A stretch of DNA of 64,000 nt from assembly GCF_000739615.1 (NCBI RefSeq), contig NZ_BATP01000016.1, positions 1 to 64,000 on the forward strand. Direction: 5' to 3'. Source of the stretch: Haloferula sp. BvORR071. Its GTDB lineage: Bacteria; Verrucomicrobiota; Verrucomicrobiia; Verrucomicrobiales; Akkermansiaceae. Below are positions 9,201 to 57,896 of the stretch, one piece after another. The notes beneath the pieces are model-generated. The model was not told where the DNA came from, did not search any database, and worked only from the letters and a program-made list of their open reading frames with translations. Numbering within the stretch: position 1 is the stretch's first letter; each line of letters starts with the position of its first letter. The position numbers and the translations under genes were made by a program.

Positions 9201-9820
9201 TCACCGGTCCACCAAGCGATCCGGGGGCTGCCCTTGTCATCACCGCTGGTGCTGCCGCTTTGGCGGATCCGCATCGCGGGAGCGTCGACGCGACCTTCGG
9301 TGCCGGCATCCTTGCCCAAGGTGCCTTCAGCAACGAGATGAATGACATCCTTGTCGCTGCTGCTCTTGGCGGCGTCGACTTGCTTCACGTCGTCAAAATT
9401 GCCCGAGACCAGCCAGGAGCGGAACGAGGGGCCGGGCCGGGTCGTCGCGGTCGAATCCCAGGAATTGTAAACCCCGGTCCAGTGACGACGCTCGGCAGTC
9501 GCGGCGGATTCATCGCCCTTGCTGCCTGAGGCCAACTGGTCCGCGGTGGTAGTAATCCGCTGATCCGGGCCAGTCTGCTTCTGGAGCTGGGCAATCGCCA
9601 TCGCCAAGGCCATCCGGGCATTGGCCCGCGCCTCGGCGAGATTCGATTCCCGCCCTGAAGTGGATAGTGAGACGGTGGATAAGGTTAAGAGCCCCACCGC
9701 CAGGATAGTCAGCAAGACCATCAAGGATAGGGAAATGACCAGGGCGAATCCATTCTTACGAAGGGGGAGGAAACGAAGGCGAAAGACTTGGACGCGGGTC
9801 GGCGAACAAAGGTTTTTCAT
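6263..9820 (-). CDS. Verru_Chthon cassette protein A-like, pilin-type signal
   Basis: This 1185-residue protein has a type IV pilin-like N terminus. A basic segment leads to KNGFALVISLSLMVLLTIL, then the helical extension (ESNLAEARANARMALAMAIAQLQ) that is characteristic of Verru_Chthon cassette protein A (the TIGR02600 family). The rest is a long soluble region with many Gly/Ser/Thr/Asn stretches. Such proteins are thought to be processed by a prepilin peptidase and to form part of a type IV pilus or type II secretion-like surface structure. The other cassette members (B, C, D) are not adjacent, so this is a solitary copy. The ATG at 9820 is preferred because it starts just before the basic segment; 37 further in-frame codons upstream have no signal character. 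Confidence 0.85.
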   Translation of the reverse strand: MKNLCSPTRVQVFRLRFLPLRKNGFALVISLSLMVLLTILAVGLLTLSTVSLSTSGRESNLAEARANARMALAMAIAQLQKQTGPDQRITTTADQLASGSKGDESAATAERRHWTGVYNSWDSTATTRPGPSFRSWLVSGNFDDVKQVDAAKSSSDKDVIHLVAEGTLGKDAGTEGRVDAPAMRIRQSGSTSGDDKGSPRIAWWTGDQGVKAALSTPTVSTDTSLAATRAGLQTAPRNAVELAKAGTEYPFDDLKGDNPNMPKVTDWQQAGFVANSPKAPQKLFHDLASSSTGLLTNVRSGGFRKDLSMQLERPSATANATLNVSRTPALYKVGSGSNVENGINLLELWSYYNLYKELKTTGSAKYTTGGGNIPSGAPYLMVDSSATACQSDDEFYFKQPTIISYQMVLSLGSQTVNGATTLTVVADPIITMWNPLDVPVAIPTSAYMSIKYWQIPYDIMVKLDGGSWLRCPLIQSLSSSDGNFVSLLAGNQQQLVFKPGEVIKISQNGGMNTMGALTTDNHKLIGSAGFNLGNGIVYQLKTDAGTPVTISANSKIAYEVRPNGYTAGQSSTGQVPPGYATHSRHFSVTHHEVYVGDDRGSNSLGYGGMFIDWDFGNKRLKYGEDRGQTAPGVNGTKITGRFFAKDKPTVFKSVLEKDGRTLTGGQLAGSAGKAPIVIFSYNAKTEQGTDPAMRTRFLSRLNPKADFVDFFDLSQEELDAWPYEYTVDSLTSWKNRSLETAGAGNGFFGGGMNAQLGKSYVITHSIPREPIVSLAALQHSFANGFEMIRPKYGYAILNSREPLLPQISHAIGNSLAPPMIPANKTDGAMSGGGRLLADHSYLANQALWDTWFFSGITPQTLKTYSKQRAQKVVAEEFLNGSGKLPVTRYLPDTSGVDVQKTLAQLFSGANPTDLGTTLTASMIRVDGLFNVNSTSIEAWKTLLGSVKGRSVVVHSAAGADSVVGGNDKDTPVAGLLTPQNTLAKSGTTDVMNDAQWIGRRTLSDDEIDQLARAIVKQVRLRGPFLSLADFINRRPGNDKDLARAGAIQAALDSKDVKINDGFNDGDRAVATNVAGRFKFPEAEQGAAGYGMPGIVKQGDILTPIAPVLAARSDSFIVRAYGESVDKDGKILARAWCEAVVERGKDFVDSQDKPEVAIASLQSESNKNFGRRYKVAAFRWLHPDEV

Positions 9821-34974: not shown

Positions 34975-37900
34975 ATGCGTCTTGCCCTGATCCAAACTGC
35001 CTGGCTGCTCGCTCCGGCTGCGATTGCCGCTGAAGCGCCGCTGTCCTTCAACGAATCGATTCAGCCCCTGCTCTCCGACGCGTGCTATCACTGCCACGGA
35101 CCGGACAGCGGGACGCGTGAACCGAGGACGATCCTTTGCGGCTTGATCGGAAGGACTATGCCTTCAGGCCGCGCAAGGATGGCAAGGCGCTGCTGGTGCC
35201 GGGCAAGCCGGAGGAGTCCGCGCTGATCAAGATCATCCACGAGACCGATCCGGAGAAGCGCATGCCGCCGCCAAAGGCGCACCGCCAGCTCAAGCCGGAA
35301 GAGGTCGCGCTGCTGGAACGCTGGGTGAAGGAAGGTGCGAAATATGAAGAGCACTGGTCCTTCATCGCGCCGGTGAAGAAGGTAACGCCTGAGATCGCGG
35401 GCGATACCTGGTCGCGCAATGGGATCGATAAGATCGTCCTAGCGAAGCTGAAGGAGAAGGGGCTCTCTCCTGCCCCGGCGGAAGATCCGCACACGCTGAT
35501 CCGCCGCGTGGCGCTGGATGTGACCGGCTTGCTGCCGGATCCCGCGGATGTGGAAGCTTTTGCCGCGAACCCGAGTGATGCGGCATATGAGGCCTACATC
35601 GACAAGCTGCTGGCCTCGCCGCGCTACGCGGAGCACCGCGCGCGCTACTGGCTGGACTACGTGCGCTACTCGGACACGCACGGGCTGCACTTCGACAATC
35701 TGCGCTCGATCTGGCCTTACCGTGACTACCTGATCCGCTCCTTCCAGAACAACAAGCCCTTCGATCGTTTCCTGACCGAGCAGCTTGCGGGTGATCTACT
35801 GCCGGCGGCGAACATTGATGAGATGGTGGCGACGGGCTATATCCGCGCGAATGTCTCGACCAACGAGGGCGGGACGATTCCGGAGGAAGTGCAGGTCAAC
35901 AATACGCGTGACCGCACGGAGGCCTTCGGTGCGGCATTCCTGGGACTCACGGTGGGCTGCTCGGCTTGCCATGACCACAAGTTCGACCCTACATCACAGA
36001 AGGATTTCTACAGTCTCTCCGCGTTCTTCAACAACACCGCGGAGAAATCCTGGGACGAGAACGTCCAGGATCCGCAGCCGGTGCTGAGAATCCCGGCAGC
36101 AGACAAGCTGCCCGAACTGGAGAAGGCGATCGCGGCGCGGCATGAGCCGGCGGCGAAATACGAAGAACTCAACAATCACGCCGAGGCCGACTTCCGCCAG
36201 GCCGTGGCCAGCGGACTGAAGGCGACCCCGGTCTCCACCGACGATTTAAAGGTCCGCCTGCGTTTCGACGAGGGCCAAGGCGACGTGGTGAAGAACAGCG
36301 CGCCAGGGGCAGATCCTGCCAGCTACAAGGTGGAAACCAATCCGCTGGTGTGGGGCGAGGACGCCTGGTTGTGGCCATCGATGCGGATGGACATCGCCAG
36401 CCGACTTGCCTTGCCGGAGGAGGGCGACTTCGAGTCCGATCAGCCGTTCAGCGCTTCCTTCTGGACGATGGCGCGACTGAAGACCGCGAACATTGACACC
36501 GGCACGGGCTCAATGCTTTCGCGCATGGGCGATAGCTCGCGCAACTCAAACCGCGGCTGGGATCTTTTCTACGAGGGCGGGAAGTTCATTTTCCACATGG
36601 TCCACCAGTGGCCGCAGAATGCGATCCGGGTGGAGAGCGCCCCCTTCGCGCGCGGTGAGTGGAAGCACGTGGGATTTACCTATGATGGTTCCGCGAAGGC
36701 AGCGGGCGTGAAGCTCTACGTGGATGGCCGCGAGGTGCCGCTGAAGGTGACGAACGACACGCTGCAGCCGGGCCAAACGATCCGCACGGATGTGCCGCTG
36801 CACGTCGGCCGGCGCGAGGACACGCAGCCGCTGCGTGAGACGCGGTATCAGGACCTGCGGCTCTATACCCGGACGCTGTCTCCCGAGGAATTCGCGCGCC
36901 TGCCTTATGAGGATGTGGCATCGGAGATTCTGGCGAAGCAGCCCGATCCGGCGAAGTGGTCGCAGGATGAGCGCTTTGTGGTCCTCAATCGCTGGTTCTT
37001 GGGCAGCGTGAATCAGGAAGCGGCGCGTCTGCGCGGTGAACTAGCCCAGGCGGATGCCGCGATCAACGAGATCACCAAGGGCGGCACGCCGACCTTGATC
37101 GCGCGTGAAAAGGCGACACCGGCGACGGCATCGGTCCTGAACCGCGGTGTCTATAGTGCGCGCAAGGAGCGGGTATATGCGCGGACGCCAGAATTCCTGC
37201 CGCCGATGGCTGCCGGGGAGACGCATGACCGCTTGGGACTTGCCCGCTGGCTCTTGCAGGCGGATCAACCACTGCTGGGCCGGGTGACGGTGAACCGGAT
37301 GTGGCAGGAGATCTTCGGCACCGGCATTGTGGAAACGACCGATGACTTCGGGATCATGGGGATGCGGCCGAGCAATCAGGATTTGCTGGACTGGCTGGCG
37401 ATCGAGTTCCGCGAGACCGGCTGGGACATGCGGAAGATGTACAAGCTGATGCTGATGTCCGCCGCCTATCGCCAAAGCAATGCGGCGACGCCGGACAAGA
37501 TAGCGAAGGACGACAAGAACCGGCTGCTCTCACGCGGACCGCGCTTCCGCATGGATGCCGAGGTGCTGCGCGACAGCGCCTTGCAAGCCGCTGGATTGCT
37601 AGTCGAGAAAACCGGTGGGCCGCCGGTGAAGCCGTATCAGCCGCCCGGCGTGTGGGAAGCGGTGTCGATGCCGGAGTCGAACACCAAGGCTTACACCGCC
37701 GACACCGGGGAGAACCTGTATCGGCGCTCGATGTATTCCTTCTGGAAGCGCTTCGCTCCCCCGCCCTCGCTGGAGACCTTCGACGCGCAGGCGCGTGAAG
37801 TAGTTTGCACGCGTCGGGCACGGACGAATACGCCGCTGCAGGCGCTGGTGACGATGAATGACCCGCAGTTCGTGGAGGCGGCAAGAAAGCTGGCGGAGCG

Positions 37901-38171
37901 GGCGATCAAAGCCGCGCCGGATGATGCGGCTCGGATCCAGTTCATGGCGGAGGCGACGATTTCGCGGAAGTTGTCCGAGAAGGAAGTGCCCGCCTTTGCG
38001 AAGAGCCTCGAGAAGTTCCGCAGTTACTTCACAAGCAAAGCGGATGATGCCGCGGCACTGCTTACCACCGGTGATTCGCCCGCCGATGCTTCCATTCCTG
38101 CCGCGGAGACCGCGACTTGGACGATGGTGGCGAACCAATTCCTGAACCTCGACGAGTACGTCAACAAATGA
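34975..38171 (+). pseudogene. Diheme PSCyt1/DUF1549/DUF1553 protein, frameshifted near the start
   Basis: The reading frame begins with a Sec signal (MRLALIQTAWLLAPAAIAAE) and a PSCyt1 heme site (CYHCH, about residue 42). After GTREP, at about 35122-35130, it leaves frame and would stop early; the family sequence resumes one base off as PLRLDRKDYAFRPR and stays open for another ~1000 residues. The loss of one base (CCGAAGGAC read as CCGAGGAC) explains it exactly. The rest holds DUF1549 with a second heme motif (GCSACHDHKFDP), a LamG-like insert (about 460-580) and DUF1553 (NRMWQEIFGTGIVETTDDFG). Intact members are exported c-type cytochrome-like proteins of unknown reaction. It overlaps the DUF1501 gene by 4 bp. 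It may be a true pseudogene, a programmed shift or a sequencing error. Confidence 0.85.
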
Positions 38172-39688
38172 AGCCTTTCCATCCATGCTCCGATTTTTCG
38201 GGCGAAGGACCCTCGGTTCTCGATCTTCCGGTGCCACATGCTGTGAAGCAGCGCTGGCTGGAGCTTGCCACGCGGCGCCAGTTTTTCGGCCGCTCGGGCA
38301 AAGCTTTGGCTTGGGCAGGCTTGGCCAAGCTGATGGGTAGCGGCCAAGCGCTGGCGTCGGGCGGTGAGCCCAGCGTGATGCTGCCGAACTTCGCGCCGAA
38401 GGCGAAGCGGGCGATCTACCTGTTCATGGCGGGCGCGCCGTCGCAGTTCGAGACTTGGGATTACAAGCCGGAGCTGGTGAAGCGCTTCGACCAGGATCTG
38501 CCGGAGTCGGTGCGCGGCGGGCAGGTGCTGACGGGGATGACGGCGTCGCAGTCGCGTTTCCCGATTGCGCCGAGTGTCTTCAATTTCCAGCAGCATGGTC
38601 AGGCTGGGCATTGGTGCAGTGAACTCTTCCCGCACACGGCGAAGGTTTCGGATGAGTTCGCGGTGCTGAAATCGCTGCATACGGAAGCGATCAACCACGA
38701 GCCGGCGATCCTGCTGGCGACCTCCGGCAACATGATCCAAGGCAAGCCTTCGATAGGAGCGTGGCTGTCCTACGGCCTTGGCTCGATGAACGAGGACCTG
38801 CCGACCTTTGTGGTGCTGACCTCGAAGCTGCCGCTGACGGTGAATATCCAGGCGCTGTCGTCGCGGCTCTGGTCTTCCGGCTTCCTCTCGCCAGAGCACG
38901 CGGGCGTGGCCTTGCGCTCCGGTGGTGATCCGGTGATTCACCTTTCGAATCCGAAGGGTGTGAGCCGTGAGTTGCGCCGCGCGATGATCGATGGCGTGAA
39001 CGACATGAACCGCCAGATCGAAGAGCGTCTGGGCGATCCGGAGACCAACGTGCGGATTTCGCAATACGAGATGGCCTTCCGCATGCAGGCCTCAGTGCCG
39101 GAGCTGACCGATCTCTCCGGCGAGCCGGAGTCGGTGTGGGAAATGTATGGGCCGAAGGCCAAGGAGCCGGGCACCTATGCCTACAACTGCCTGATGGCGC
39201 GCCGCATGGCGGAGCGCGGAGTGCGTTTCACCCAGATCTTCCACCGCGGCTGGGATACCCACGGCGATCTTCCGAACCGCATGCGCATCCTTTGCGAGGA
39301 CGTCGATCGTCCGACCGCGGCGCTGATCGCCGACCTCAAGCAGCGCGGTCTGTTAGAAGACACGCTGGTAGTTTGGGGCGGCGAGTTCGGCCGCACGGTT
39401 TACTCGCAGGGCGGCTTGTCCAAGGACAACTACGGCCGCGACCACCACCCGCGCTGCTTCTCGATGTGGATGGCTGGCGGCGGCGTCAAGCCCGGTGCCA
39501 CCTATGGCGAGACCGACGAGTTCTCCTACAACATCGTGAAGGATCCGATGCACATCCGGGATCTGAATGCGACGATCCTGCATTTACTCGGCGTCGACCA
39601 CGAGAAGCTCACCTTCAAGTTCCAAGGGCTGGAGCAGAAGCTGACCGGGGTGGAACCAGCGAAGGTGGTGAAGGAGATCTTGAGCTAA
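38168..39688 (+). CDS. DUF1501 family exported protein
   Basis: The 506-residue product has a Tat-type segment ([21 protein letters not shown] at about 36-56) and the DUF1501 core, which belongs to the alkaline phosphatase/sulfatase-like fold. Family motifs include [21 protein letters not shown], a conserved Trp-Asp-Thr-His (GWDTHGD), [11 protein letters not shown] and [17 protein letters not shown], and the C terminus ends [20 protein letters not shown]. Its ATG overlaps the stop of the preceding gene (ATGA), so its translation is probably coupled to that frameshifted gene. DUF1501 and PSCyt1/DUF1549/DUF1553 genes are nearly always paired in Planctomycetes and Verrucomicrobia. The joint function is unknown. 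Confidence 0.9.
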
Positions 39689-47271: not shown

Positions 47272-47958
47272 GTGCGCTACTCGCTGCTGCTTTCCATTCT
47301 AGGCGTCCTGCTTGCGCTTCTGGGCCTGCAGGCAGGATGGCCATGGAGCATTCCACTCGTGTGGTTGGCGCTGAATTTCGTGGCCCTTGGCGTTGCCCAT
47401 TCCCGCGGCGGCCACGGTATCTTCGGCAAGCGGCCGGATGGCACCCTTCGGTGGTGGAGCTGGGTGCTGTTCCTGCCGCTGCTGCTTTACACGGCGGCGG
47501 TGTGGCATCTTATCCGGCTGATCAGCCGCGAGGCGGCGGTCAACCGCCTAACAGAGCGGATCGCGATCGGCCGTCGTCTCCTGCCCGGGGAATTGAAGGA
47601 GAGCTTCTCCAACCATGTCGACCTCACCGCGGAGTTTCAGGAGCCCGACGCCTACCGCAGCAGTGCGGGCTATTTTGCCTTTCCAATTCTTGATGCGGCT
47701 GCGCCGAACCCCGAGCACTTGGCGCAGGCGATTGAAAGCCTGAAGGAGGGGCCGGTCTTTATCCATTGCGCCCAAGGCCATGGCAGGACCGGACTCTTTG
47801 CCTTGGCCTTGCTGCTCTCCTCCCGCGCGGTGGGATCGCTCGATGAGGGACTCGATCTTCTCGCCAAGGCCCGCCCGGCGGTACGCCTGAATCGTTCGCA
47901 ACTTGCATGTGCCCGCGCTTTCGCAGCACTACACAAGGAGCCCGATCCCTCGTCATGA
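47272..47958 (+). CDS. Membrane protein-tyrosine/dual-specificity phosphatase-like
   Basis: The 228-residue product starts with GTG. Helices at about residues 4-22, 25-43 and 63-82 lead to a cytosolic phosphatase domain with the PTP signature HCAQGHGRTG (Cys-x5-Arg) near residue 165. The general-acid loop is harder to place. Membrane-linked small PTPs of this kind can act on phosphoproteins or on phospholipid head groups, as PTPMT1 does on phosphatidylglycerol phosphate. Its stop overlaps the start of the GH8 gene (ATGA), implying translational coupling. Confidence 0.8.
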   Translation: MRYSLLLSILGVLLALLGLQAGWPWSIPLVWLALNFVALGVAHSRGGHGIFGKRPDGTLRWWSWVLFLPLLLYTAAVWHLIRLISREAAVNRLTERIAIGRRLLPGELKESFSNHVDLTAEFQEPDAYRSSAGYFAFPILDAAAPNPEHLAQAIESLKEGPVFIHCAQGHGRTGLFALALLLSSRAVGSLDEGLDLLAKARPAVRLNRSQLACARAFAALHKEPDPSS

Positions 47959-49511
47959 AGCTTCGCTGCATCCGATGCTCTCTACCGCTGTTAGCTTTCC
48001 TGCTAACGGTGGCCGGTGCTTCCGCGCAGCAGTATCCCTTCCCCCAGCACATCCTCTACACACCGGGGACGATCCTGCCTTCGAACTACACGCAGGCCCA
48101 GCTCGATGGAGATGTGCGCGCCTTCTACGACTACTGGAAGCAGAGCTACCTGAAGACCGCTGGAACCACAACGGACGGCCGCACGATGTATCGGATCGCC
48201 TTCGGGAAGTCCGGGGCTGGCGCAAATGCCACGGTTTCCGAAGGCCAAGGCTACGGCATGCTGATCCTGCCGCTGATGGCCGGGCATGACCCGGCAGCGC
48301 GGACGATCTTCGACGGGCTCTATGAGTTCGCCCACGCGCACCCCAGCCCGGGCGACGGGCGATTGATGGATTGGAAGATCCCGCGCGATGCGAGCGCGGG
48401 TGGCAGCAGCGCCTTCGATGGCGATGCGGACATCGCGCACGGGCTCATCCTCGCCCACGCGCAATGGGGCAGCGGCGGGACCGTGAACTACGCGGCTGCG
48501 TCTAACACTTGGCTGGCGGGAATCCTCGCTTCGACCATCGGGCAGACGAGCCGCTTGCCCACGCTGGGCGACTGGGCCTCACCGACGAGCGGCAAGCAGT
48601 ATGAACCGCGTTCCTCCGACCTGATGCCCGGTCACTTCCGTGCCTGGGCGCGGTATTCGGGGAATCCGGTGTGGAATACCGTGACCGCGAATTGCTCCGC
48701 GGTGGCGACGGCGATCCAGGCGAATCACAGCGCGGCGACCGGCTTGCTGCCGGACTTCATGATCAACGCTAACCCGCTCAGCGCGGTGAAGCCCGCTGGG
48801 CCGAACTTTCTGGAGAGCGAGAACGATGGCTCCTACTACTACAATGCCGGGCGAGTGCCGTGGCGCCTCGGCGTGGACGCGCTTTTGAATGCCGAAGCGA
48901 CGGCGTCCAAAACGCAGGCCGCAAAGATCGCCGCGTGGATGAAGACGAAGGCTGGCGGCAATGCGGCGAACATCCGCGCGGGCTACAAGCTGGATGGTAG
49001 CAATATCTCCGGCAACGACTACGAGACGACCTTCTTCATCGCGCCGATGGGCGTGGCTGCCATGCTCGATTCTGCCAACCAGGCATGGCTGAACTCGATC
49101 TACGCGAAGGTCCGCACCACGCATGAGGATTACTTCGAGGACACGGTGAACCTGCTGTGCCTGATCGCGATGAGCGGCAACTACTGGGACCCGACCACCG
49201 TTGACCAGCAGCCCGGGTTGATCCGCCGTCACGTCTTGCCACCTGATGGCCGGATGCAACTCGAGAGCGCCCGGCCGGAGCAAGTCGTGGTCTTCACGGT
49301 GAATCCCGCGGCGGGCCGCTATGGCCTGGTGCTGGAGCGGACCAGTGACTTTGGCGCGTGGACGACCTTGGCGACGCGGGCGGCCGGGGCTGCGAACTTC
49401 CAAGCCGCGGCTGACGTGACGGTGCTAAGCCAGACCAGCCCGGTGCGGATCCGGGATGGCTCGGCCGGGGCCGGGGCGAGCCACTTCTACCGGGTGAGGA
49501 TTGGGAATTGA
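47955..49511 (+). CDS. Glycoside hydrolase family 8 glucanase, secreted
   Basis: The 518-residue product has a Sec signal (CSLPLLAFLLTVAGASAQ) and the GH8 (alpha/alpha)6 barrel: catalytic acid region TVSEGQGYGMLILPL, conserved Asp region AFDGDADIAHGLILAHAQWG, and YNAGRVPWRLGVDALLN. GH8 enzymes are inverting endo-beta-1,4-glucanases, chitosanases or xylanases, and BcsZ-like members trim bacterial cellulose. After about residue 415 there is a beta-type tail similar to those on other secreted proteins here. No cellulose synthase genes are in the window, so either a degradative or a matrix-processing role is possible. It overlaps the upstream PTP-like gene by 4 bp. Confidence 0.92.
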   Translation: MKLRCIRCSLPLLAFLLTVAGASAQQYPFPQHILYTPGTILPSNYTQAQLDGDVRAFYDYWKQSYLKTAGTTTDGRTMYRIAFGKSGAGANATVSEGQGYGMLILPLMAGHDPAARTIFDGLYEFAHAHPSPGDGRLMDWKIPRDASAGGSSAFDGDADIAHGLILAHAQWGSGGTVNYAAASNTWLAGILASTIGQTSRLPTLGDWASPTSGKQYEPRSSDLMPGHFRAWARYSGNPVWNTVTANCSAVATAIQANHSAATGLLPDFMINANPLSAVKPAGPNFLESENDGSYYYNAGRVPWRLGVDALLNAEATASKTQAAKIAAWMKTKAGGNAANIRAGYKLDGSNISGNDYETTFFIAPMGVAAMLDSANQAWLNSIYAKVRTTHEDYFEDTVNLLCLIAMSGNYWDPTTVDQQPGLIRRHVLPPDGRMQLESARPEQVVVFTVNPAAGRYGLVLERTSDFGAWTTLATRAAGAANFQAAADVTVLSQTSPVRIRDGSAGAGASHFYRVRIGN

Positions 49512-49756: not shown

Positions 49757-49904
49757 CACCGCCCAAAAAGCGGCGATTCTCGCGCGCACTCCAAAAGCGG
49801 CTGCGCCGCTAAGGGGAGCACGGTTCTTGATCGGGGCGGGCGGGGCAAACTCCCCCGAAATTTCCGCGAAAGATTCCCCCGATTCTTGGTAAGACTGGGT
49901 GGAG

Positions 49905-50429
49905 ATGTCCGCCGAACCGCACAATGCCGAGGAAAGAATCGTGGGCCTGATCGCCCGGCACCAGCCGGAGATCCACCGCTACATCCTCTCCCTGCTGCCG
50001 GACCGGATGCTGGCGGACGATGTAGTGCAGGAGACGAATCTGGTCCTGTGGCGCAAGGCGGCGGATTATGATCCGTCCCAGCCCTTCCTGCCTTGGGCCT
50101 TCACGATCGCCCTTTACCAAGTGAAAGCGGCCCGCCGGGACGCCGGCCGCGACCGCCATGTTTTCGATGATTCGCTGGTCGAGATTCTAGCCGCCGAGGG
50201 CCGCGAGGCCGAGTCCCACGGCGGAGACCTGGAAAAGGCACTGGAGAGCTGTCTGCAAGAGCTTCCGGAAAAGCAGCGCCAGCTGATCCTCGCCCGCTAC
50301 GCCCCCGGCAACTCGGTGCAGGCCTTGGCCGCCGAGCGCAGCCAGACGCCCACCGCCCTGTCCCTGACCCTCATGCGCATCCGCAAGGCGCTGGAAACCT
50401 GCATCGAGCGCAAGCTCGCCCTGCCATGA
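49905..50429 (+). CDS. ECF sigma factor (Rhodopirellula/Verrucomicrobium type)
   Basis: The 174-residue RNA polymerase sigma factor has region 2 (AEERIVGLIARHQPEIHRYIL, then LADDVVQETNLVLWRKAADYDP and the WAFTIALYQVKAARRD segment) and region 4 (LQELPEKQRQLILARYAPGNS, then an HTH ending TALSLTLMRIRKALETC). It matches the phylum-restricted ECF family (TIGR02989). The ATG at 49905 is chosen over a GTG two codons earlier. It overlaps the following FecR gene by 4 bp. This head-of-operon position, with a membrane FecR-like partner next, is the usual arrangement for cell-surface signalling. Confidence 0.92.
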   Translation: MSAEPHNAEERIVGLIARHQPEIHRYILSLLPDRMLADDVVQETNLVLWRKAADYDPSQPFLPWAFTIALYQVKAARRDAGRDRHVFDDSLVEILAAEGREAESHGGDLEKALESCLQELPEKQRQLILARYAPGNSVQALAAERSQTPTALSLTLMRIRKALETCIERKLALP

Positions 50430-51748
50430 CCGAGGACCGCTTGGAATTGCTGCTGCACGCGCTCTTCGAGGAAGCCCTCGATGAGGCGGGGCGGGCGGAG
50501 TTGAACGAGCTGCTGCTTGCCAGTGCGGACGCGCGGGCTCGTTACCGCCGCGCGACCGCCCTTCACTCCGCGCTTTTGAGGAAGGCAGCCCATCCCTCCT
50601 ATTTTGGAGCCCCGGTGGAGGCCTCTGCCGAGGCCAGGCTTGTCCCCTTCCGGAGAGGCCGTTGGCTCGCAGCCGCAGCGGGGGTCGCCTTGCTTGGCTC
50701 TGCGGCCGCAATTTTCATGACCCGCCCGCGCGGCCCAGTGGCAAATGTGCTGGAAGCCCAGGATGTCGCATGGACGGAAGGCTCCCCCTCCCCGGCTTCC
50801 GGCCGCGTGCCGGTGGCCACGCCGCTGGAGTTCACCCGCGGCTTCGTGAAGCTCGGCTTTCCCAGTGGTGCCAGCGTCGTGCTGGAAGGCCCCTGCCGCT
50901 TCCGCCTCGATGAGAAGGAAGCGCTCTCCGTGATCCATGGCCGCGCCTCGATCCACACCCCGAAGGGTGCCCAAGGCTTCCGGATCGATACCCCCGGTGG
51001 TCGCTTCGTCGATCTTGGAACGGAGTTCGGCCTCGCGGTCGGCAATGATGGCGCGGATCCGGTGGTGCTCACCGAGGTCTTCAAGGGCGAGGTGGAGATC
51101 CAGGCCACGCCGCGGGATAGCACCCGGCTCACTGTCGGCGAAAGCCGCGCGCTGGTCCGCGAGTCGGGCAAGCCAAAGCTGCTCGCTGATCTCGACGAAT
51201 CGCCGGTGGCCCTCGTCAACCACGCCCACGATTTGCCGCAATCGAATGGCGAGGAAGGCAACCTCGCCCTCGGCAAGCCGGTCTTCAGTCCCGGTTACTG
51301 CACCCGGCCGCACGGCTCGGTCTTCCCGCCTGACAATCTAACCGATGGCCGGCTGAACGACAGCGGCGTGCCCGGCGACTGGTCCTTCTGGCTCGCTCCG
51401 GATGGTGAGGATGGCGAGTTCACCGTCGATCTTCTGGCATTACAGACGGTTGGCCGGATCGAGCTGCAAAATACCAACAACCGCGGCATCGACGACCGCG
51501 GGACGGCGGCCTTCGAGCTCTTGGGTTCGCTCGACAACAAGAACTTCTTCCCGCTCGTCACGGCGGAGCTATCCCGCGTCACTGCGGCCAAGGGTGAGGC
51601 CTATCCCTTCCAGCCCTTCAGCTTCGATCCGGTGGAGCTCCGCTATGTGAAGATGGTGGTGAGTGCGCACTACCGCAATGAGAAGCGTCCCTCCAATCAT
51701 CCCTGCCAAGGTGGAGGCCTGAACGAAATCCGCATCTTTTCGAAATGA
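50426..51748 (+). CDS. FecR-domain membrane protein with F5/8 (discoidin)-like tail
   Basis: The 440-residue single-pass protein has a cytosolic N-terminal segment of about 75 residues that should bind the sigma factor (EEALDEAGRAELNELLLASADARARY), a transmembrane helix (about 80-98, AAAAGVALLGSAAAIFM), then a FecR domain (about 150-230, with FRIDTPGGRFVDLGTEFGL, GEVEIQ and SRALV). Residues about 275-440 look like a galactose-binding/discoidin fold (GYCTRPHGSVFPPDNLTDGR; LNEIRIFSK at the end). The FecR part would control sigma activity and the tail could sense a carbohydrate ligand in the periplasm. It overlaps the genes on both sides by 4 bp. Confidence 0.88.
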   Translation: MTEDRLELLLHALFEEALDEAGRAELNELLLASADARARYRRATALHSALLRKAAHPSYFGAPVEASAEARLVPFRRGRWLAAAAGVALLGSAAAIFMTRPRGPVANVLEAQDVAWTEGSPSPASGRVPVATPLEFTRGFVKLGFPSGASVVLEGPCRFRLDEKEALSVIHGRASIHTPKGAQGFRIDTPGGRFVDLGTEFGLAVGNDGADPVVLTEVFKGEVEIQATPRDSTRLTVGESRALVRESGKPKLLADLDESPVALVNHAHDLPQSNGEEGNLALGKPVFSPGYCTRPHGSVFPPDNLTDGRLNDSGVPGDWSFWLAPDGEDGEFTVDLLALQTVGRIELQNTNNRGIDDRGTAAFELLGSLDNKNFFPLVTAELSRVTAAKGEAYPFQPFSFDPVELRYVKMVVSAHYRNEKRPSNHPCQGGGLNEIRIFSK

Positions 51749-54642
51749 CCCGGCTGCTCCCAAGTCACGGCCCCGCTCTTGCGGCGATCCTCCCCTGCCT
51801 CGCCATCGTGCCCGCGCGGGGGGCGATCGACTTCGCGCATGAGATCCGCCCGATCTTCAATGCCCACTGCACCGCCTGCCACGGTGGAGTGAAGGAGGCA
51901 GGTGATGTCTCCTTCATCTATCACGACAAGGCGCTCGGCAAAGGCGAATCCGGCAAGCCGATCATCGTGCCCGGAGATCCGGATGCCTCGGAGGTGATGC
52001 TGCGTGTCACCTCCGCCGATCCGGACGAGGTGATGCCGAAGCCCGAGCACGGCCCGCCCTTGGCAAAGAAGGAGATCGATACCCTGCGCCAATGGATCAA
52101 GGAAGGCGCTGTGTGGGGCGAGCACTGGTCCTTCGTCGAGCCCAAGGCCTCGCCCGCACCCGCCGTGAAGGATGCGACCTGGCCGCACAATGATATCGAC
52201 CGTTTCCTGCTCGCGCGCATGGAGCGCGAGGGCCTGCACCCCTCCAAGCCGGCCGACAAGGCCGCCCTGCTGCGCCGCGTCTCGCTCGACCTGACAGGCC
52301 TGCCACCCTCGCTCGAAGAGCTCGATGCCTTCCTCAAGGACAACTCCGCGGACGCCTATGACAAGCAGGTGAACCGCCTGCTCGCCTCGCCGCGCTTCGG
52401 GGAGCGTTGGGCCAGCGTCTGGATGGACCTCGCCCGCTATGCCGACTCCGAAGGCTTGGGCATCGATAGCCGCCGCGACGTCTGGAAGTACCGCGACTGG
52501 GTCATCTCCGCTTTCAACCGCGACCTGCCCTACGACCAATTCACCGTCGAGCAACTTGCCGGCGACCTAATCCCGAATGCGACGATCGACCAGCGGATCG
52601 CCACCACCTTCAGCCGCCTCAGCCAGGCCAACAATGAAGGCGGCACCGATGATGAAGAGTTCCGCGTGATTGCCACCATGGACCGGGTCAATACCACCTG
52701 GGAGGTCTTCCAAGGGACGACCATGGGCTGCGTGCAATGTCACAGCCACCCTTACGATCCGATCCAGCACAAGGATTACTACCGCTTCCTGGCCTTCTAC
52801 AATCAGAGCGTGGATGCCGATGTGCCGGAAAACCATCCGGTGATCAAGGTACCGCTGGACCCGGCAAAGTATGCGGAAGCCGGAGCGCTGGAAGAAAAGA
52901 TCAGCAGCTTGGAGGAACAGATTTTCCAGACCCGCAAGTCACTGGATTCCCGCACCCGCTGGCTCACGCCGCGGGAAATGAAGGGCAGCAGCGAGAAGGC
53001 GGTGCTCGAGATCGTGAAGCAAGACGGTTTGGCGGAGTTCCGCACCGTCGGCAATGTCGCCGCAGGGGCGGTGCACACGCTGGATATTCCGATTCCCGGC
53101 GGGCTCACGCATTTCAATGCGTTGAAGGTGGAGGTCCGTCCGGTGGATGAGGCCAAGGCGATTCACACACCGGAGTGGGGCGCGATGATCCGCAAGTTTG
53201 AGCTGCAGGTGATCGCCGCGGACGGCACGGCGACGCCGGTCCCACTGGCAGAAATCGTGGCGGATGAAGCGCACCCGATCTTCGATCCCAATCTCTCGAT
53301 CAAGGGTTCCAATGAAGGCTGGGGCCAATACACCAAGATCTTCAAGCCACGCCATGCCGTGCTCGTTCCCGCGGCTCAGGTCGATCTGCCACCCGGCTCG
53401 ACCTTGCGGGTCGTCCTCGCGCATTCCACCAGCTCGGCGGGCGGTGCCTATCCCCTGATCGCCAAGCGCGGCCGCATCGCCATCAGCGATGACACGGCTT
53501 GGACCACTCCGGACAACGCGGTCGACCGGCTGAAGGCAGATCTCTCCGCCGCCCGCAAGGCCCTCAAGGCAATCCCCTCCACCACCACCCCGGTGATGGA
53601 GGACCTCCCGCCGGAGCTTGCCCGCGAGACCCGCCGCTTCATCCGCGGCAATTGGATCGACAAGGGCGAGGTGATCGACAAGCCCGGCACGCCCGCGGTC
53701 TTCCCGCCGATGGACCCGAAGGCCAAGCCGGACCGTCTGGCTATGGCGCGCTGGATCGCTTCGCAGAAGAATCCGCTAACCGCCCGCGTAGCGGTGAACC
53801 GCTTCTGGCTGGAGCTGTTTGGCGTGGGCATCGTGCCGACTCCGGAGGACTTCGGCTCCGCCGGGGAAAGGCCGACTCATCCGGAGCTGCTGGACACCCT
53901 CGCGGTACGCTTCGAGACGGACATGAAGTGGAGTGTGAAGTCCCTGCTCCACGAGCTGGTGAGCACTGCCGCCTATCAGCAGGACTCTGCCATCCCGACC
54001 ACGCTGGCCGAGCGCGATGCGGACAACCGTCTGCTTGCCCGCGGCCCGCGCCAGCGCCTGACCGGCGAGATGGCCCGCGACAACTCGCTGGCGGTCGCCG
54101 GCCTGATCCAGCAGCGCGACGGTGGAGCGCCGGTGAATCCGCCGATCCCCGATGGCGTGTGGCGCCCCTTCGACTCGGGCGACAAGTGGATGACTCCGGA
54201 GCCCGGCAGCCCCGACCGCTACCGCCGCGCCGTCTACACCTACTGGAAGCGCAGTATTCCCTACCCGACCTTCGCGACCTTCGATGCGCCCTCGCGCGAG
54301 CTGTGTTCGAAGCGCCGCATCCTCTCGAACACGCCTCTGCAAGCTCTCGCCGTGCTCAATGACCCCGCCTTCAACGAATGCGCCAAGGGCTTGGCCCGCC
54401 GCATGAAGTATGAAGCGCAGGGTGACGTGAAAGAGCGCCTCGCCTTGGGCTATCGCCTCGCCACCTCCAGACCGGCAACGCCGGACCGGATCGAGGATCT
54501 GAACGCCCTCTACACCAAACTGGAGAAGTCCTACGCCGCGGATCCGGCCTCGATGCAAGGCATGGCCGGCACCCCGGATGGCGCGGCCTATACCGTGGTC
54601 GCGTCCGTCCTGCTGAACCTTGATGAAGCGCTGATCCGATAG
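51745..54642 (+). CDS. Diheme PSCyt1/DUF1549/DUF1553 exported protein
   Basis: The 965-residue product has a Sec signal (about 10-26), a PSCyt1 cytochrome c-like domain with heme motif C42TACH, DUF1549 (about 130-370) with a second heme motif in GCVQCHSHPYDP, a beta-rich middle region with a coiled-coil start (EKISSLEEQIFQTRKSLD), and DUF1553 (about 640-940, NRFWLELFGVGIVPTPEDFG; YTYWKRSIPYPTFATFDAPSREL). Two covalent hemes point to extracytoplasmic electron transfer. The reaction is not known. Compared with its frameshifted paralogue at 34975-38171, it is in frame and lacks the LamG-like insert. It overlaps fecR by 4 bp; the DUF1501 gene follows after 35 bp. Confidence 0.92.
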   Translation: MTRLLPSHGPALAAILPCLAIVPARGAIDFAHEIRPIFNAHCTACHGGVKEAGDVSFIYHDKALGKGESGKPIIVPGDPDASEVMLRVTSADPDEVMPKPEHGPPLAKKEIDTLRQWIKEGAVWGEHWSFVEPKASPAPAVKDATWPHNDIDRFLLARMEREGLHPSKPADKAALLRRVSLDLTGLPPSLEELDAFLKDNSADAYDKQVNRLLASPRFGERWASVWMDLARYADSEGLGIDSRRDVWKYRDWVISAFNRDLPYDQFTVEQLAGDLIPNATIDQRIATTFSRLSQANNEGGTDDEEFRVIATMDRVNTTWEVFQGTTMGCVQCHSHPYDPIQHKDYYRFLAFYNQSVDADVPENHPVIKVPLDPAKYAEAGALEEKISSLEEQIFQTRKSLDSRTRWLTPREMKGSSEKAVLEIVKQDGLAEFRTVGNVAAGAVHTLDIPIPGGLTHFNALKVEVRPVDEAKAIHTPEWGAMIRKFELQVIAADGTATPVPLAEIVADEAHPIFDPNLSIKGSNEGWGQYTKIFKPRHAVLVPAAQVDLPPGSTLRVVLAHSTSSAGGAYPLIAKRGRIAISDDTAWTTPDNAVDRLKADLSAARKALKAIPSTTTPVMEDLPPELARETRRFIRGNWIDKGEVIDKPGTPAVFPPMDPKAKPDRLAMARWIASQKNPLTARVAVNRFWLELFGVGIVPTPEDFGSAGERPTHPELLDTLAVRFETDMKWSVKSLLHELVSTAAYQQDSAIPTTLAERDADNRLLARGPRQRLTGEMARDNSLAVAGLIQQRDGGAPVNPPIPDGVWRPFDSGDKWMTPEPGSPDRYRRAVYTYWKRSIPYPTFATFDAPSRELCSKRRILSNTPLQALAVLNDPAFNECAKGLARRMKYEAQGDVKERLALGYRLATSRPATPDRIEDLNALYTKLEKSYAADPASMQGMAGTPDGAAYTVVASVLLNLDEALIR

Positions 54643-54677
54643 GACCGGCATCTGAACATTCACTTTTCTCTCCCGCC

Positions 54678-56153
54678 ATGTTCCAGCAACTCCAGACCGA
54701 GAAGCTCCAACACATCACGCGCCGCCGCTTTCTACGCGATTGCCCCGCTGGCATTGGTGCCTTGTGGATGGCGACCCAAGGGCTGTCCTCGGGTGCGGGC
54801 CGCCTGAAGATCTCGCACGATCCCTCCGCGCCGCTCGCGCCCTTGCTGCCCTCCTTCGCGCCCAAGGCGAAGCGGGTGATCTACTTGCACATGGATGGCG
54901 CGCCGAGCCAGCTTGAGCTCTTCGACTACAAGCCGCAGCTCGTCCGCTACAATGGCAAGGAGTGCCCGAAGGAATACCTCGAAGGCCAGCGCTTCGCTTT
55001 CATCCAAGGCGTGCCGAAGATGCTCGGACCGCAATTTGAGTTCAAGCAACACGGTCAGAGCGGGGCCTGGGTCTCCGACCGCTTGCCGGAATTTTCGAAG
55101 CACGTGGACAAGGTCTGCTTCATCAAGACGATGCAGACCGACCAGTTCAACCACGGCCCGGCCCAGCTACTCCTGCACACCGGCAACCAAAACCTCGGCT
55201 ACCCCGCGATGGGCTCCTGGCTGACTTGGGGTCTTGGCACGGATAACCAGAACCTGCCTGGCTTCATGGTGCTGATCTCCGGCGGACGTTTCCCGCGAGC
55301 CGGTGCCTCCCTCTGGGGTAGCGGCTTCCTGCCCTCCGTCTATCAGGGCGTGCAGTGCCGCTCGATGGGCGACCCTATCCTCAACACGGCCAATCCACCC
55401 GGAGTCAGCCGCGACATCCGCCGCGCCGCGCTCGACACCCTCTCCAAACTCAACACCAAGGCCCACGAGGACTTCGGCGATCCGGAGACGATCACCCGCA
55501 TCGCCCAATACGAGATGGCCTACCGCATGCAGGTCTCGGTGCCGGATGTCATGAGCATCAAGGATGAGCCCGCGCACATTCACGAGATGTACGGCACGCA
55601 GCCGGGGAAGGATTCCTTCGCAAACAACTGCCTGCTCGCCCGCCGCCTCGCGGAGTCCGGCGTGCGCTTCATCCAGCTCTTCGACTGGGGCTGGGATTCC
55701 CACGGGTCGAATGCCGGCGAATCTCTCACCGATGGCTTCGTAAAGAAGTGCAAGGACATCGACAAGGCGATCGCCGCCCTGCTGACCGACCTCGATCAAC
55801 GCGGGATGTTAGAAGACACCCTGGTCGTCTGGGGCGGTGAGTTCGGCCGCACTCCGATGCAGGAAAACCGCGGCGGCGGTGATGGCAACAAGTTCACCGG
55901 CCGCGACCACAACCCGAATGCCTTTACCATCTGGATGGCCGGTGCCGGCGTGAAGCCAGGCTTCACCTACGGCGAAACCGATGAAATGGGCTACCACGTC
56001 GCCCGTGATCCGGTCCACCTCCGCGACCTGCACGCAACCATGCTGAACCTCTTCGGCTTCGACCACCAGCGGCTGTCCTATCCCTTCCAAGGGTTGGAGC
56101 AGAAGCTCACCGGGGTGAAGCCGGCGAAGGTGGTGAAAGGGATCTTGGCCTGA
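54678..56153 (+). CDS. DUF1501 family exported protein
   Basis: The 491-residue product has a Tat-like start (ITRRRFLRDCPAGIGALWMA at about 13-32) and the DUF1501 core: RVIYLHMDGAPSQLELFDYKP, the metal-site-like [21 protein letters not shown] and GRDHNPNAFTIWMAGAG, ending [20 protein letters not shown]. It lies in the alkaline phosphatase-like superfamily. It pairs with the diheme protein immediately upstream, as its paralogue at 38168 does. It is probably transferred folded through Tat, which fits a cofactor- or metal-bound partner. Specific activity unknown. Confidence 0.92.
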   Translation: MFQQLQTEKLQHITRRRFLRDCPAGIGALWMATQGLSSGAGRLKISHDPSAPLAPLLPSFAPKAKRVIYLHMDGAPSQLELFDYKPQLVRYNGKECPKEYLEGQRFAFIQGVPKMLGPQFEFKQHGQSGAWVSDRLPEFSKHVDKVCFIKTMQTDQFNHGPAQLLLHTGNQNLGYPAMGSWLTWGLGTDNQNLPGFMVLISGGRFPRAGASLWGSGFLPSVYQGVQCRSMGDPILNTANPPGVSRDIRRAALDTLSKLNTKAHEDFGDPETITRIAQYEMAYRMQVSVPDVMSIKDEPAHIHEMYGTQPGKDSFANNCLLARRLAESGVRFIQLFDWGWDSHGSNAGESLTDGFVKKCKDIDKAIAALLTDLDQRGMLEDTLVVWGGEFGRTPMQENRGGGDGNKFTGRDHNPNAFTIWMAGAGVKPGFTYGETDEMGYHVARDPVHLRDLHATMLNLFGFDHQRLSYPFQGLEQKLTGVKPAKVVKGILA

Positions 56154-56252: not shown

Positions 56253-56993
56253 ATGGCACACGTCTTCATCGCTCGCCCCCTCCGCGTCCTGGCTGCTACC
56301 GCAGCCACGTTTTCCTTGTCCGCGTGCCAAGCGAAGAAGGAGGCGACGGTCACCGCCACGCCCCCGCAGATTCCTTCGCCCCCACCCACCGCAGCACCAT
56401 CTACAAGCACCCCGCTGCCCCCCTTCGCGTCTCCCACCCTCAAGATCGCCACGGTGGATATGAAGCAAGTCTTCAGGGAATACCATCGGACCATCGCGGC
56501 GGACAAGGACCAGCGGGCCGCGATCGTAAAGGTCAATCAGGAGAATCAAGAGCGGCTTGAGAGCATTCGGAAGCTCCAGCAGCAAGTCGAAGAACTGGGC
56601 AAGGCCATCACCGATCCCGCGATCTCCGATTCCAAGCGGCAGACCCTGGCCAAGGAGCGCCAGGCCAAGTTTGAGGAAGGCGTTGCCCTCGACAAGGAAC
56701 GCCAGACCTTTCTCCAGCACCGCGAACAAGCACTTCGTGAGAAGACCATGGAACGTCGCGGCGCTCTCTTCGAGGACATCCGCCGCGTGGTTGTCGATAC
56801 CGGCAAGGCCGAGGCCTGTGACTACGTCTTCGACAAGTCGGCCATCGACTCCTTGCAGCTGCCCTTCTTTCTGCTCACTCCTGATAGCGCCGACCTAACC
56901 GGAGAAATCCTCGCCCAACTGAATCGCGATGCACCAACGCCGGAAGAAGAAAGCAGTGCTCGCACCGAGCCCGATATCCCGCTAGGCAAATGA
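56253..56993 (+). CDS. OmpH/Skp-like lipoprotein
   Basis: The 246-residue product has a lipoprotein signal (TFSLSAC, lipidated Cys25), a Pro/Ser/Thr-rich spacer (about 30-60) and an OmpH-type domain: KIATVDMKQVFREYHRT, then a long coiled coil (about 85-165) and a final beta segment (CDYVFDKSAIDSL). Skp/OmpH proteins hold unfolded outer-membrane proteins, but those are usually soluble; the lipid anchor and spacer suggest a membrane-tethered variant or a different role. The next gene, an ECF sigma factor, starts 4 bp after its stop, so they are probably one operon. Confidence 0.85.
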   Translation: MAHVFIARPLRVLAATAATFSLSACQAKKEATVTATPPQIPSPPPTAAPSTSTPLPPFASPTLKIATVDMKQVFREYHRTIAADKDQRAAIVKVNQENQERLESIRKLQQQVEELGKAITDPAISDSKRQTLAKERQAKFEEGVALDKERQTFLQHREQALREKTMERRGALFEDIRRVVVDTGKAEACDYVFDKSAIDSLQLPFFLLTPDSADLTGEILAQLNRDAPTPEEESSARTEPDIPLGK

Positions 56994-56997
56994 TGAG

Positions 56998-57543
56998 ATG
57001 AGTGGAGACCCGGTCAGATTGACCGTCGGCCTGACACGCTGCGATGAAGCCGCGTGGCGGGAGTTCCATGCCCGCTACTTTGAAATCCTGAAATCGATGG
57101 CGCTCGCGCGCGGGGTAGCCCCCTGCGAGGCTCCGGAGATTGTCCAGCGCGTCTATCTCCGCGTGCTGCGCCATGCCAAGGTCTTCCAGAGCGACCACGA
57201 CTTCGAGGCTTGGCTTGCCTGCCTGACGCGTTGCGAAGTCATCGACTCCTCGCGCCGGAGCCGCCGCCGGACCTGGCTGGGTGAGCGCTTCCAGCAGTGG
57301 CAGGAAGAACGCCGCGAAGAAGCCCCGCCAGCCAGCGACGAACGTCTCGCCGACGCCTTGCATTCCCTGACTGAGGAGGAACGCCACCTGCTCACCCGCC
57401 ATTATGTCGATGGCTGGAGCCAAGATGAACTCGCCGCCGCCCAAGCCACTTCCACCAAGGCGATCGAGTCCCGCCTCGCCCGCCTGCGCCGCCGCGTCCG
57501 CAGCCTGATGATGGACCATCCCGATACGCCCGTAGAACCATGA
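56998..57543 (+). CDS. ECF sigma factor
   Basis: The 181-residue sigma factor has region 2 (CDEAAWREFHARYFEILKSMA, EIVQRVYLRVLRHAKVFQSD, FEAWLACLTRCEVIDSSRR) and region 4 (LHSLTEEERHLLTRHYVDGWS, then an HTH, ELAAAQATSTKAIESRLARLRRRV). It differs clearly from the sigma factor at 49905. The 118-residue membrane protein that overlaps its stop by 4 bp is the likely anti-sigma factor, and the OmpH-like lipoprotein sits just upstream. Confidence 0.88.
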   Translation: MSGDPVRLTVGLTRCDEAAWREFHARYFEILKSMALARGVAPCEAPEIVQRVYLRVLRHAKVFQSDHDFEAWLACLTRCEVIDSSRRSRRRTWLGERFQQWQEERREEAPPASDERLADALHSLTEEERHLLTRHYVDGWSQDELAAAQATSTKAIESRLARLRRRVRSLMMDHPDTPVEP

Positions 57544-57896
57544 ACCCGTCCGACCCGATTCTCGACAGTTTGCTCGACGCCGTGAAGGCGACCAAGCGCC
57601 GCCGCCAGAACCGGCGCACGCTGGTGGCAACCTGTCTCGCCTGCACGGTCGCGGCTAGCATCCCCTTTCTGCTCCCGGATGAGGAGGACCTGCCACCAAT
57701 GGCGGCGGTCCCACCACCACCGGCAGCCCCGGGGCCTGTCGTGGAGGCCAGCACCCTGGCCATGGTGGTCTGGCAGAATGGCGTGCCCTGCTTGGAGGAA
57801 TTGCCGGCGGAGGAGCTGGGACTGGTGCAGCTCAATTTCGGACTCCAGCCGGTGATCGCCTATCCGGACACCCTGTGGAAGGATCCTTGGAATTGA
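57540..57896 (+). CDS. Small single-helix membrane protein, candidate anti-sigma factor
   Basis: The 118-residue product has a cytosolic N-terminal segment of 25 residues (ILDSLLDAVKATKRRRQNRR), one transmembrane helix (about 28-46, VATCLACTVAASIPFLL), a Pro/Ala-rich spacer (PPPPAAPGPV) and a short periplasmic domain of about 45 residues. It overlaps the ECF sigma gene by 4 bp. It has no zinc-binding HxxxCxxC motif or FecR domain, so it would be a minimal type of anti-sigma factor. The assignment rests on position and topology only. Confidence 0.7.
   Translation: MNPSDPILDSLLDAVKATKRRRQNRRTLVATCLACTVAASIPFLLPDEEDLPPMAAVPPPPAAPGPVVEASTLAMVVWQNGVPCLEELPAEELGLVQLNFGLQPVIAYPDTLWKDPWN

Follow-up and report, generated by a model that had tools for sequence, protein, structure and literature searches.

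The locus considered here raises the question of whether an extracytoplasmic function (ECF) sigma factor, a membrane sensor and two putatively exported proteins encoded side by side in Haloferula sp. BvORR071 form one regulated unit and, if they do, what that unit senses and what it switches on. The window, meaning the whole stretch of DNA that was analysed, comprises 64,000 nucleotides (positions 1 to 64,000 of contig NZ_BATP01000016.1, forward strand). Four open reading frames on its + strand occupy 49905-56153 (coordinates are those of the frames):

49905..50429, + strand, ECF sigma factor of the Rhodopirellula/Verrucomicrobium subfamily (TIGR02989, 165.4 bits)
50426..51748, + strand, FecR-type single-pass membrane sensor and predicted anti-sigma factor (PF04773 and PF00754)
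51745..54642, + strand, diheme-type PSCyt1-PSCyt2-PSD1 protein (domain matches and CXXCH motifs)
54678..56153, + strand, DUF1501 protein with a twin-arginine translocation (Tat) motif and an alkaline-phosphatase-superfamily fold (PF07394, 510 bits)

The sigma gene starts with the ATG at 49905, with an in-frame GTG also present at 49899. Two 4-bp ATGA overlaps join the sigma and FecR genes and the FecR and heme-protein genes, while a 35-bp gap separates the heme-protein gene from that of the DUF1501 protein. A preliminary description, made from the letters of the window, had proposed this layout, with which the coordinates agree; its suggestion of a single coupled unit is supported by the gene order kept in relatives and by a promoter-like motif upstream of the sigma gene. 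The four-gene unit is real and its parts are ordinary members of known families; what is new is the site resembling a promoter, the occurrence of a conserved discoidin reader on a cytochrome as well as on the sensor, and the variable pairing of regulator and enzymes. With a probability of roughly 0.45, we favour the reading that the four genes form one operon in which an ECF switch amplifies itself and controls a periplasmic redox/hydrolase pair.

We scanned 145 genomes of the family, 87 of which gave some FecR match (among the matches listed, most reach only residue ~262), and took the 20 strongest FecR places besides that of the window, from 19 genomes. In 17 of these 20 loci, chosen as they were for their FecR matches, the order sigma factor, FecR-discoidin protein, PSCyt1-PSCyt2-PSD1 protein and DUF1501 protein is kept, which rules out an oddity specific to the window. 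The heme proteins of the 17 loci share 33-77% identity with that of the window, and the 4-bp overlap between the FecR and heme-protein genes is identical in 12 of them. Two further loci (L061, at 6780-9806, and L062) keep the sigma gene, the FecR-discoidin gene and the same promoter motif, but a flavin adenine dinucleotide (FAD) oxidoreductase replaces the heme protein (PF12831 337 bits in L061; a similar gene was seen by eye in L062). In L064, sigma and FecR genes are present and the enzyme pair is absent from the examined stretch. A wider scan, in which the discoidin alignment was run against the genomes of 84,980 species, returned 19 loci, eight of them already in the 20-locus set; their titles name Verrucomicrobiota in 18 cases and Phycisphaerales in one. 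A FecR-discoidin gene was found in 18 of the 19, a sigma gene upstream in 17 (the contig of L110 starts too late to show one) and a heme-protein gene right after FecR in 16. A DUF1501 gene is present in 14 of these 16; the contigs of the other two, L101 and L103, break off within the heme-protein gene or shortly past it. Named genomes with the operon are those of Luteolibacter marinus, Rubritalea marina and Pelagicoccus mobilis. Among 288 genomes spread across the phylum, six gave a discoidin match, five of them strong (at least 115 bits, the own genome of the window included) and the sixth weak (21 bits); one of the five also has a weak match elsewhere. At L104:10852-13414, the heme-protein gene of the operon is split over two overlapping frames.

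The window sigma factor exceeds the curated cut-off of TIGR02989 (Sig-70_gvs1), 124.55 bits, and is the best of 57 matches in its own genome. The preliminary description had called it a phylum-specific ECF sigma factor; the ECF assignment stands, while the restriction to one phylum does not, the subfamily being named for both Rhodopirellula and Verrucomicrobium. Directly upstream of the gene lies the conserved motif:

49867..49892, + strand, putative ECF-type promoter CGAAAG-N15-GGTAA (function proposed from conservation)

Its core, AAAGATT-N12-GGTAA (49869-49892), stops 12 bp short of the sigma ATG, so a message from it would start a few bases before that codon. With A or T allowed at the first position and the 12-bp spacer kept, 24 of 29 loci agree with the core in at least 11 of its 12 positions, 6-34 bp before the start codon, and in these 24 at most 1 of 300 shuffles scored equally well. 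The motif was first noticed on 21 of the 29 loci, which are related and not independent and whose start codons were assigned by the analyst; it was found in six of the eight loci added after that. The own 7.8-Mb genome holds two exact sites, one of them at the operon, as against none for a reversed control. A larger regulon was considered and rejected, since the only remaining exact site falls within an open frame of L065; this search covered the exact pattern only. Across the 19 relatives' genomes the exact pattern occurs 28 times, of which 13 are at the sigma gene; the reversed control gave 11 hits, as against the 15 sites elsewhere. The Rubritalea and Pelagicoccus loci, whose sigma factors are more distant, carry an alternative motif in the corresponding position, CATATT-N12-GGTAT, which has three exact sites in the Rubritalea genome (control, one) and two in that of Pelagicoccus (control, none). 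An exact search for it found no site in G335, the genome of L095, where TCATAA...GGTAT was seen by eye at the same distance before the sigma gene. Read as -35 and -10 elements, CGAAAG-N15-GGTAA resembles known ECF promoters, such as TGAAAC-N16-CGTA of Bacillus. A sigma-70 promoter above chance was rejected (one found, 0.8 expected), and so was a terminator (six found, 5.5 expected). Since the motif is conserved and a different one stands beside the more distant sigma factor, the sigma factor would start at its own motif; the simplest reading of this conservation is that the motif may serve as a private, self-activated promoter and that the operon is autoregulated.

Alternatively, the motif could be a site for another regulator or sigma factor, with the sigma gene controlling distant genes and not its own operon. 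The short distance of 12 bp from the -10-like part to the ATG, which would make for an almost leaderless message, is in keeping with such a role. We nevertheless judge it quite improbable: the motif occurs one to three times per genome where present, and once at the operon in 13 of 15 such relatives; it differs beside the more distant sigma factor; sigma-70-like promoters do not exceed chance; and, by eye, the upstream sequences of further sigma genes of this type in the own genome are different.

The second protein has the layout of a FecR-type anti-sigma factor, with a FecR domain, a single membrane helix and a gene directly after that of an ECF sigma factor. Its domains are as follows:

50912..51097, + strand, FecR domain of the sensor, residues 163-224 (PF04773, 25.9 bits)
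51248..51745, + strand, discoidin tail (F5/8 type C, galactose-binding-like), residues 275-440 (PF00754, 39.6 bits at residues 300-414)

The FecR score stands against a cut-off of 24. The only hydrophobic window spans residues 81-99, and 22 of 24 FecR rows have one membrane helix. A sequence search of the FecR protein against solved structures gave no match, and NCBIfam gave nothing above cut-off for the FecR protein, the heme protein, the DUF1501 protein, the second and third genes of locus L001 (described below) or the fifth gene of L063. The galactose-binding-like tail foreseen in the preliminary description is the PF00754 match itself. Among 23 relatives, mean identity to the window is 59% for the discoidin domain, 49% for the FecR region, 39% for the cytoplasmic part and 35% for the helix. 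As the best-conserved part of the protein, the discoidin domain is plausible as its sensing part, and carbohydrate sensing by this tail is likewise plausible.

FecI-FecR of E. coli also combines an ECF sigma factor with a FecR regulator. FecI-FecR-like pairs such as LIC_12757/LIC_12756 of Leptospira share this arrangement in the text compared. In contrast to FecI-FecR, the window unit lacks a gene for a TonB-dependent transporter, carries a C-terminal discoidin domain and continues into heme-protein and DUF1501 genes; no outer-membrane transporter with a signalling domain, as expected of TonB-linked FecI/FecR/FecA signalling, was found among the four operon genes or five neighbours scanned. 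In RsiV-SigV of Bacillus, whose anti-sigma factor is a lysozyme receptor, the signal is, according to the portion of text compared, bound directly by the anti-sigma factor. That pair belongs to another sigma group and has another fold than the window pair.

A fifth gene follows the other four of the operon in L063 (Rubritalea marina, identical to L111; L063:4297-6315) and in L095, from another family (L095:5907-8177). The encoded proteins have a PSCyt1 domain (45 and 46.9 bits, respectively), a DUF2231-like membrane part (20.8 and 16.5 bits, neither reaching the cut-off of 26.4) and leucine-rich-like repeats (27.1 bits in L063 against a cut-off of 27; below cut-off in L095). They also carry a discoidin domain 41% identical to that of the window, a second copy of the module on a predicted membrane cytochrome. 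The same discoidin type on sensor and cytochrome of one operon is in favour of a different view of the signal, in which the sensor would monitor the envelope of the cell itself or proteins of the operon and not an outside carbohydrate, its ligand being a protein partner, a lipid or a glycan of the cell, with the switch serving to tune the amount of enzyme. Conservation of the discoidin domain, where variation might have been seen, fits such a fixed self ligand, and RB10049, the ECF gene of a similar Rhodopirellula unit, was up under all three stresses studied in the part of that report compared (PMC2754498). Neighbours hinting at sugar use in a few loci argue the other way, namely an AraC/XylR-type regulator in L063 and a similar one in L064 (by eye), a sulfatase gene and a gene like those of glycoside hydrolase family 2 beside the L095 operon (by eye), and a glycoside hydrolase family 8 gene upstream of the operon in the window. 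We consider sensing of a self ligand somewhat unlikely, yet a serious possibility.

To place the unit among its paralogs, we turned to the own genome, whose assembly gave 24 PSCyt1, 57 TIGR02989 (8 above cut-off), 24 DUF1501 and 11 FecR matches. Among the 15 best-scoring sigma loci, that of the window included, a FecR-type gene adjoins the sigma gene in 12, and a heme-protein/DUF1501 pair directly follows in two, the window and L001. In the latter (L001:4957-10942), a second sigma-headed pair, a 334-residue one-helix protein with no Pfam match replaces FecR; L009 has a same-strand pair ~6.5 kb further on, beyond opposite-strand genes. Nine other FecR proteins of the genome were scanned (L002-L006 and L008-L011), five of which (L003, L004, L005, L008 and L009) end in a lectin-like Laminin_G_3 tail, indicating that a sugar-binding-like tail is common; two more (L007 and L012) have the FecR domain alone. 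The discoidin tail was found only on the FecR protein of the window among those scanned. Weak matches to Verru_Chthon cassette protein A (27-28 bits, far below cut-off) occur near sigma-FecR pairs at L005:2832-6476 and L010:8622-12056. Altogether, the examined stretches of the genome and the window hold 18 adjacent heme-protein/DUF1501 pairs. The window itself has a second one at 34975-39688, in which the first heme motif (34975-35226) lies in another frame than the rest (35136-38171), pointing to a possible frameshift; Luteolibacter marinus has a close relative (L099:58-4682).

In a tree of heme proteins, the operon rows fall into three groups, split by own-genome paralogs, and the DUF1501 tree gives the same picture. 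L071 stands beside the window group with a set support of 100 in both trees, L073 beside the Rubritalea group with support of 100 in the first and 81 in the second, and the nearest paralogs of the heme protein and the DUF1501 protein match between the two trees, both of which were quick and drew long-branch warnings. One enzyme lineage inherited with its regulator was rejected, a single clade of operon rows failing approximately unbiased (AU) tests for both proteins: p was 4.4e-5 for DUF1501 (20 operon rows versus 11 paralogs, 4 long-branch paralogs of 15 omitted) and 7e-35 for the heme protein (16 of 21 operon rows versus 9 of 16 paralogs). This rejection may reflect repeated recruitment; alternatively, some paralogs may have lost the regulator next to them. 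In a FecR tree rooted at the midpoint, the sensors of L060, L107 and L108, whose enzymes are of another lineage, and of L061, which has no such enzymes, fall on the side of the window; separation from the Rubritalea group is supported at 100/100, and finer placing falls short of the star. Read most simply, these trees suggest that the two enzymes move as a pair, with the regulator as a separate module.

The heme protein contains PSCyt1, PSCyt2 and PSD1, in that order, and two CXXCH motifs at residues 42 and 329:

51868..52047, + strand, PSCyt1 cytochrome c domain, CTACH at residue 42 (Pfam; profile match to FoxE cytochrome, E 3.7e-9)
52195..52809, + strand, PSCyt2 (DUF1549), second heme motif CVQCH at residue 329 (Pfam and motif)
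52930..53514, + strand, predicted CBM32/discoidin-like beta-sandwich, residues ~396-590, between PSCyt2 and PSD1 (borderline fold match)
53731..54510, + strand, PSD1 (DUF1553) (Pfam)

Both motifs are present in 31 of 32 aligned relatives, and the second in all 32. The diheme character given to this protein in the preliminary description is upheld, whereas its naming as a PSCyt1 protein was incomplete, PSCyt2 and PSD1 being present as well. The protein may also hold a CBM32-like domain, although the fold match is borderline and the region has no Pfam match; the fold comparison barely covered the rest of the protein, and missing fold matches there carry no weight. Its N terminus is signal-like by eye and the DUF1501 protein bears the Tat motif TRRRFL, but nothing puts either protein on the outer surface, and the "surface" system first proposed is not supported. 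He et al. 2017 predicted PSCyt proteins to be periplasmic or cytoplasmic, in the part of the paper compared (PMC5615132), and the same text agrees with the earlier remark that the chemistry of the diheme/DUF1501 pair is not established. Compared to the alkaline phosphatase superfamily (phosphatases, nucleotide pyrophosphatases/phosphodiesterases and sulfatases), the DUF1501 protein has a like fold with apparently altered metal ligands: the first Asp is not kept across the rows, the D-Q pair of a sulfatase has a different counterpart, and the type I sulfatase signature [CS]xPxR is absent from the window protein and matched anywhere in one of 35 rows.

Taken together, these findings are consistent with a mechanism in which FecR would hold the sigma factor by its short N-terminal cytoplasmic part, while its discoidin domain in the periplasm would recognise a conserved ligand, a sugar or glycan being the most likely. 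Ligand binding would free or activate the sigma factor, leading to transcription from CGAAAG-N15-GGTAA just before its own gene, and one message would then yield more sigma factor, sensor, heme protein and DUF1501 protein. The heme protein would probably be exported unfolded, with hemes added outside, and the DUF1501 protein exported folded via Tat. Judging from their conserved pairing, the two may act together on the sensed compound, the heme protein by one-electron oxidation and the DUF1501 protein via one metal site of a modified phosphatase/sulfatase-type fold; that the pair carries out a redox reaction is itself something we infer. In the five-gene versions, the membrane cytochrome with the same discoidin module might accept the electrons.

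Several observations weigh against this mechanism. The first 78 residues of FecR, the putative sigma-binding part, match no Pfam family, and discoidin domains bind proteins and lipids as well as sugars. Five of the 29 loci have no good match to the motif (L064, 10 positions; L060, L063 and L109, 9 each; L095, 7), four of the 19 relatives' genomes contain no exact copy, and the alternative motif was noticed after the fact on two loci, with a third by eye. Three of the 20 loci (L061, L062 and L064) keep sigma and FecR without the enzyme pair, indicating that the sensor is not tied to the heme/DUF1501 enzyme. In the DUF1501 protein, the first Asp (position 73, its canonical status taken from motif order and not from superposition) is D in only 10 of 35 rows, that of the window included, and E-F stands where sulfatase has D-Q (in a weak alignment), so hydrolase chemistry may be lost. 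Finally, 16 of the 18 own-genome pairs, that of L009 among them, have no such regulator directly beside them. The search near the 18 pairs was for relatives of the window proteins at a threshold of E 1e-8; as it passed over the FecR genes in L004 and L006, FecR proteins of other kinds may have escaped it too, and two pairs have weaker sigma matches (53 bits) no more than 2 kb away (C33:9117-9545 and C63:136662-137120).

Enzyme pairs without an adjacent regulator must be expressed in some other way, as would also hold if the locus were a stable neighbourhood with read-through, in which FecR is structural and the enzyme pair constitutive, free of ligand control. Adjacency of sigma and FecR-type genes in the majority of the best sigma loci is the usual layout of a sigma/anti-sigma module, and we regard this explanation as very improbable.

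It is also conceivable, although unlikely, that the discoidin reader is shared by sensor and effector. A constant regulator, made up of sigma factor, FecR-discoidin sensor and private promoter, would then have been joined repeatedly to different heme/DUF1501 lineages or to a FAD oxidoreductase, all acting on one conserved ligand, which the cytochrome of the five-gene versions would grip too, with the DUF1501 protein serving as metal partner of a diheme oxidase. If true, this would be a new kind of two-protein periplasmic redox enzyme, with DUF1501 a re-tooled phosphatase-fold protein, and sensor domains could predict the substrates of similar operons. Returning to the single-operon switch, its interest lies in the abundance, within one genome, of heme-protein/DUF1501 pairs that have no assigned function: where such a pair is linked to a single sensor and a single site resembling a promoter, there is a direct way in, as the ligand of the discoidin domain would be a substrate candidate, and the CGAAAG-N15-GGTAA rule makes the sigma-promoter pairing testable.

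In Rhodopirellula baltica, ECF RB10049 has been proposed as the regulator of RB10051 (PSC2-PSD1) (PMC2754498, citing Studholme et al.). As in the window, an ECF sigma factor is tied to a PSC2-PSD1 gene there, whereas a discoidin sensor, DUF1501 and a promoter are not mentioned in the text compared. He et al. described PSCyt/PSD domains of unknown function in many combinations in freshwater Verrucomicrobia, usually beside two unknown gene families and some with carbohydrate-binding domains, in the portion compared; the words "sigma" and "FecR" occur 0 times in the main text (PMC5615132). Titles and abstract openings of the listed literature on DUF1501, PSCyt, DUF1549/1553, ECF/FecR and discoidin with FecR did not yield the four-gene unit, of which a printed description may exist.

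As for the neighbourhood, a continuation of the operon past DUF1501 was rejected, the next gene, 99 bp downstream, being of another kind. It opens a trio at 56253-57896 that consists of an OmpH-like gene, another ECF sigma gene and a small gene; a comparable trio is seen downstream in L045, by eye. On the upstream side, the glycoside hydrolase family 8 gene occupies 47907-49511 on the same strand, ~390 bp before the sigma gene.

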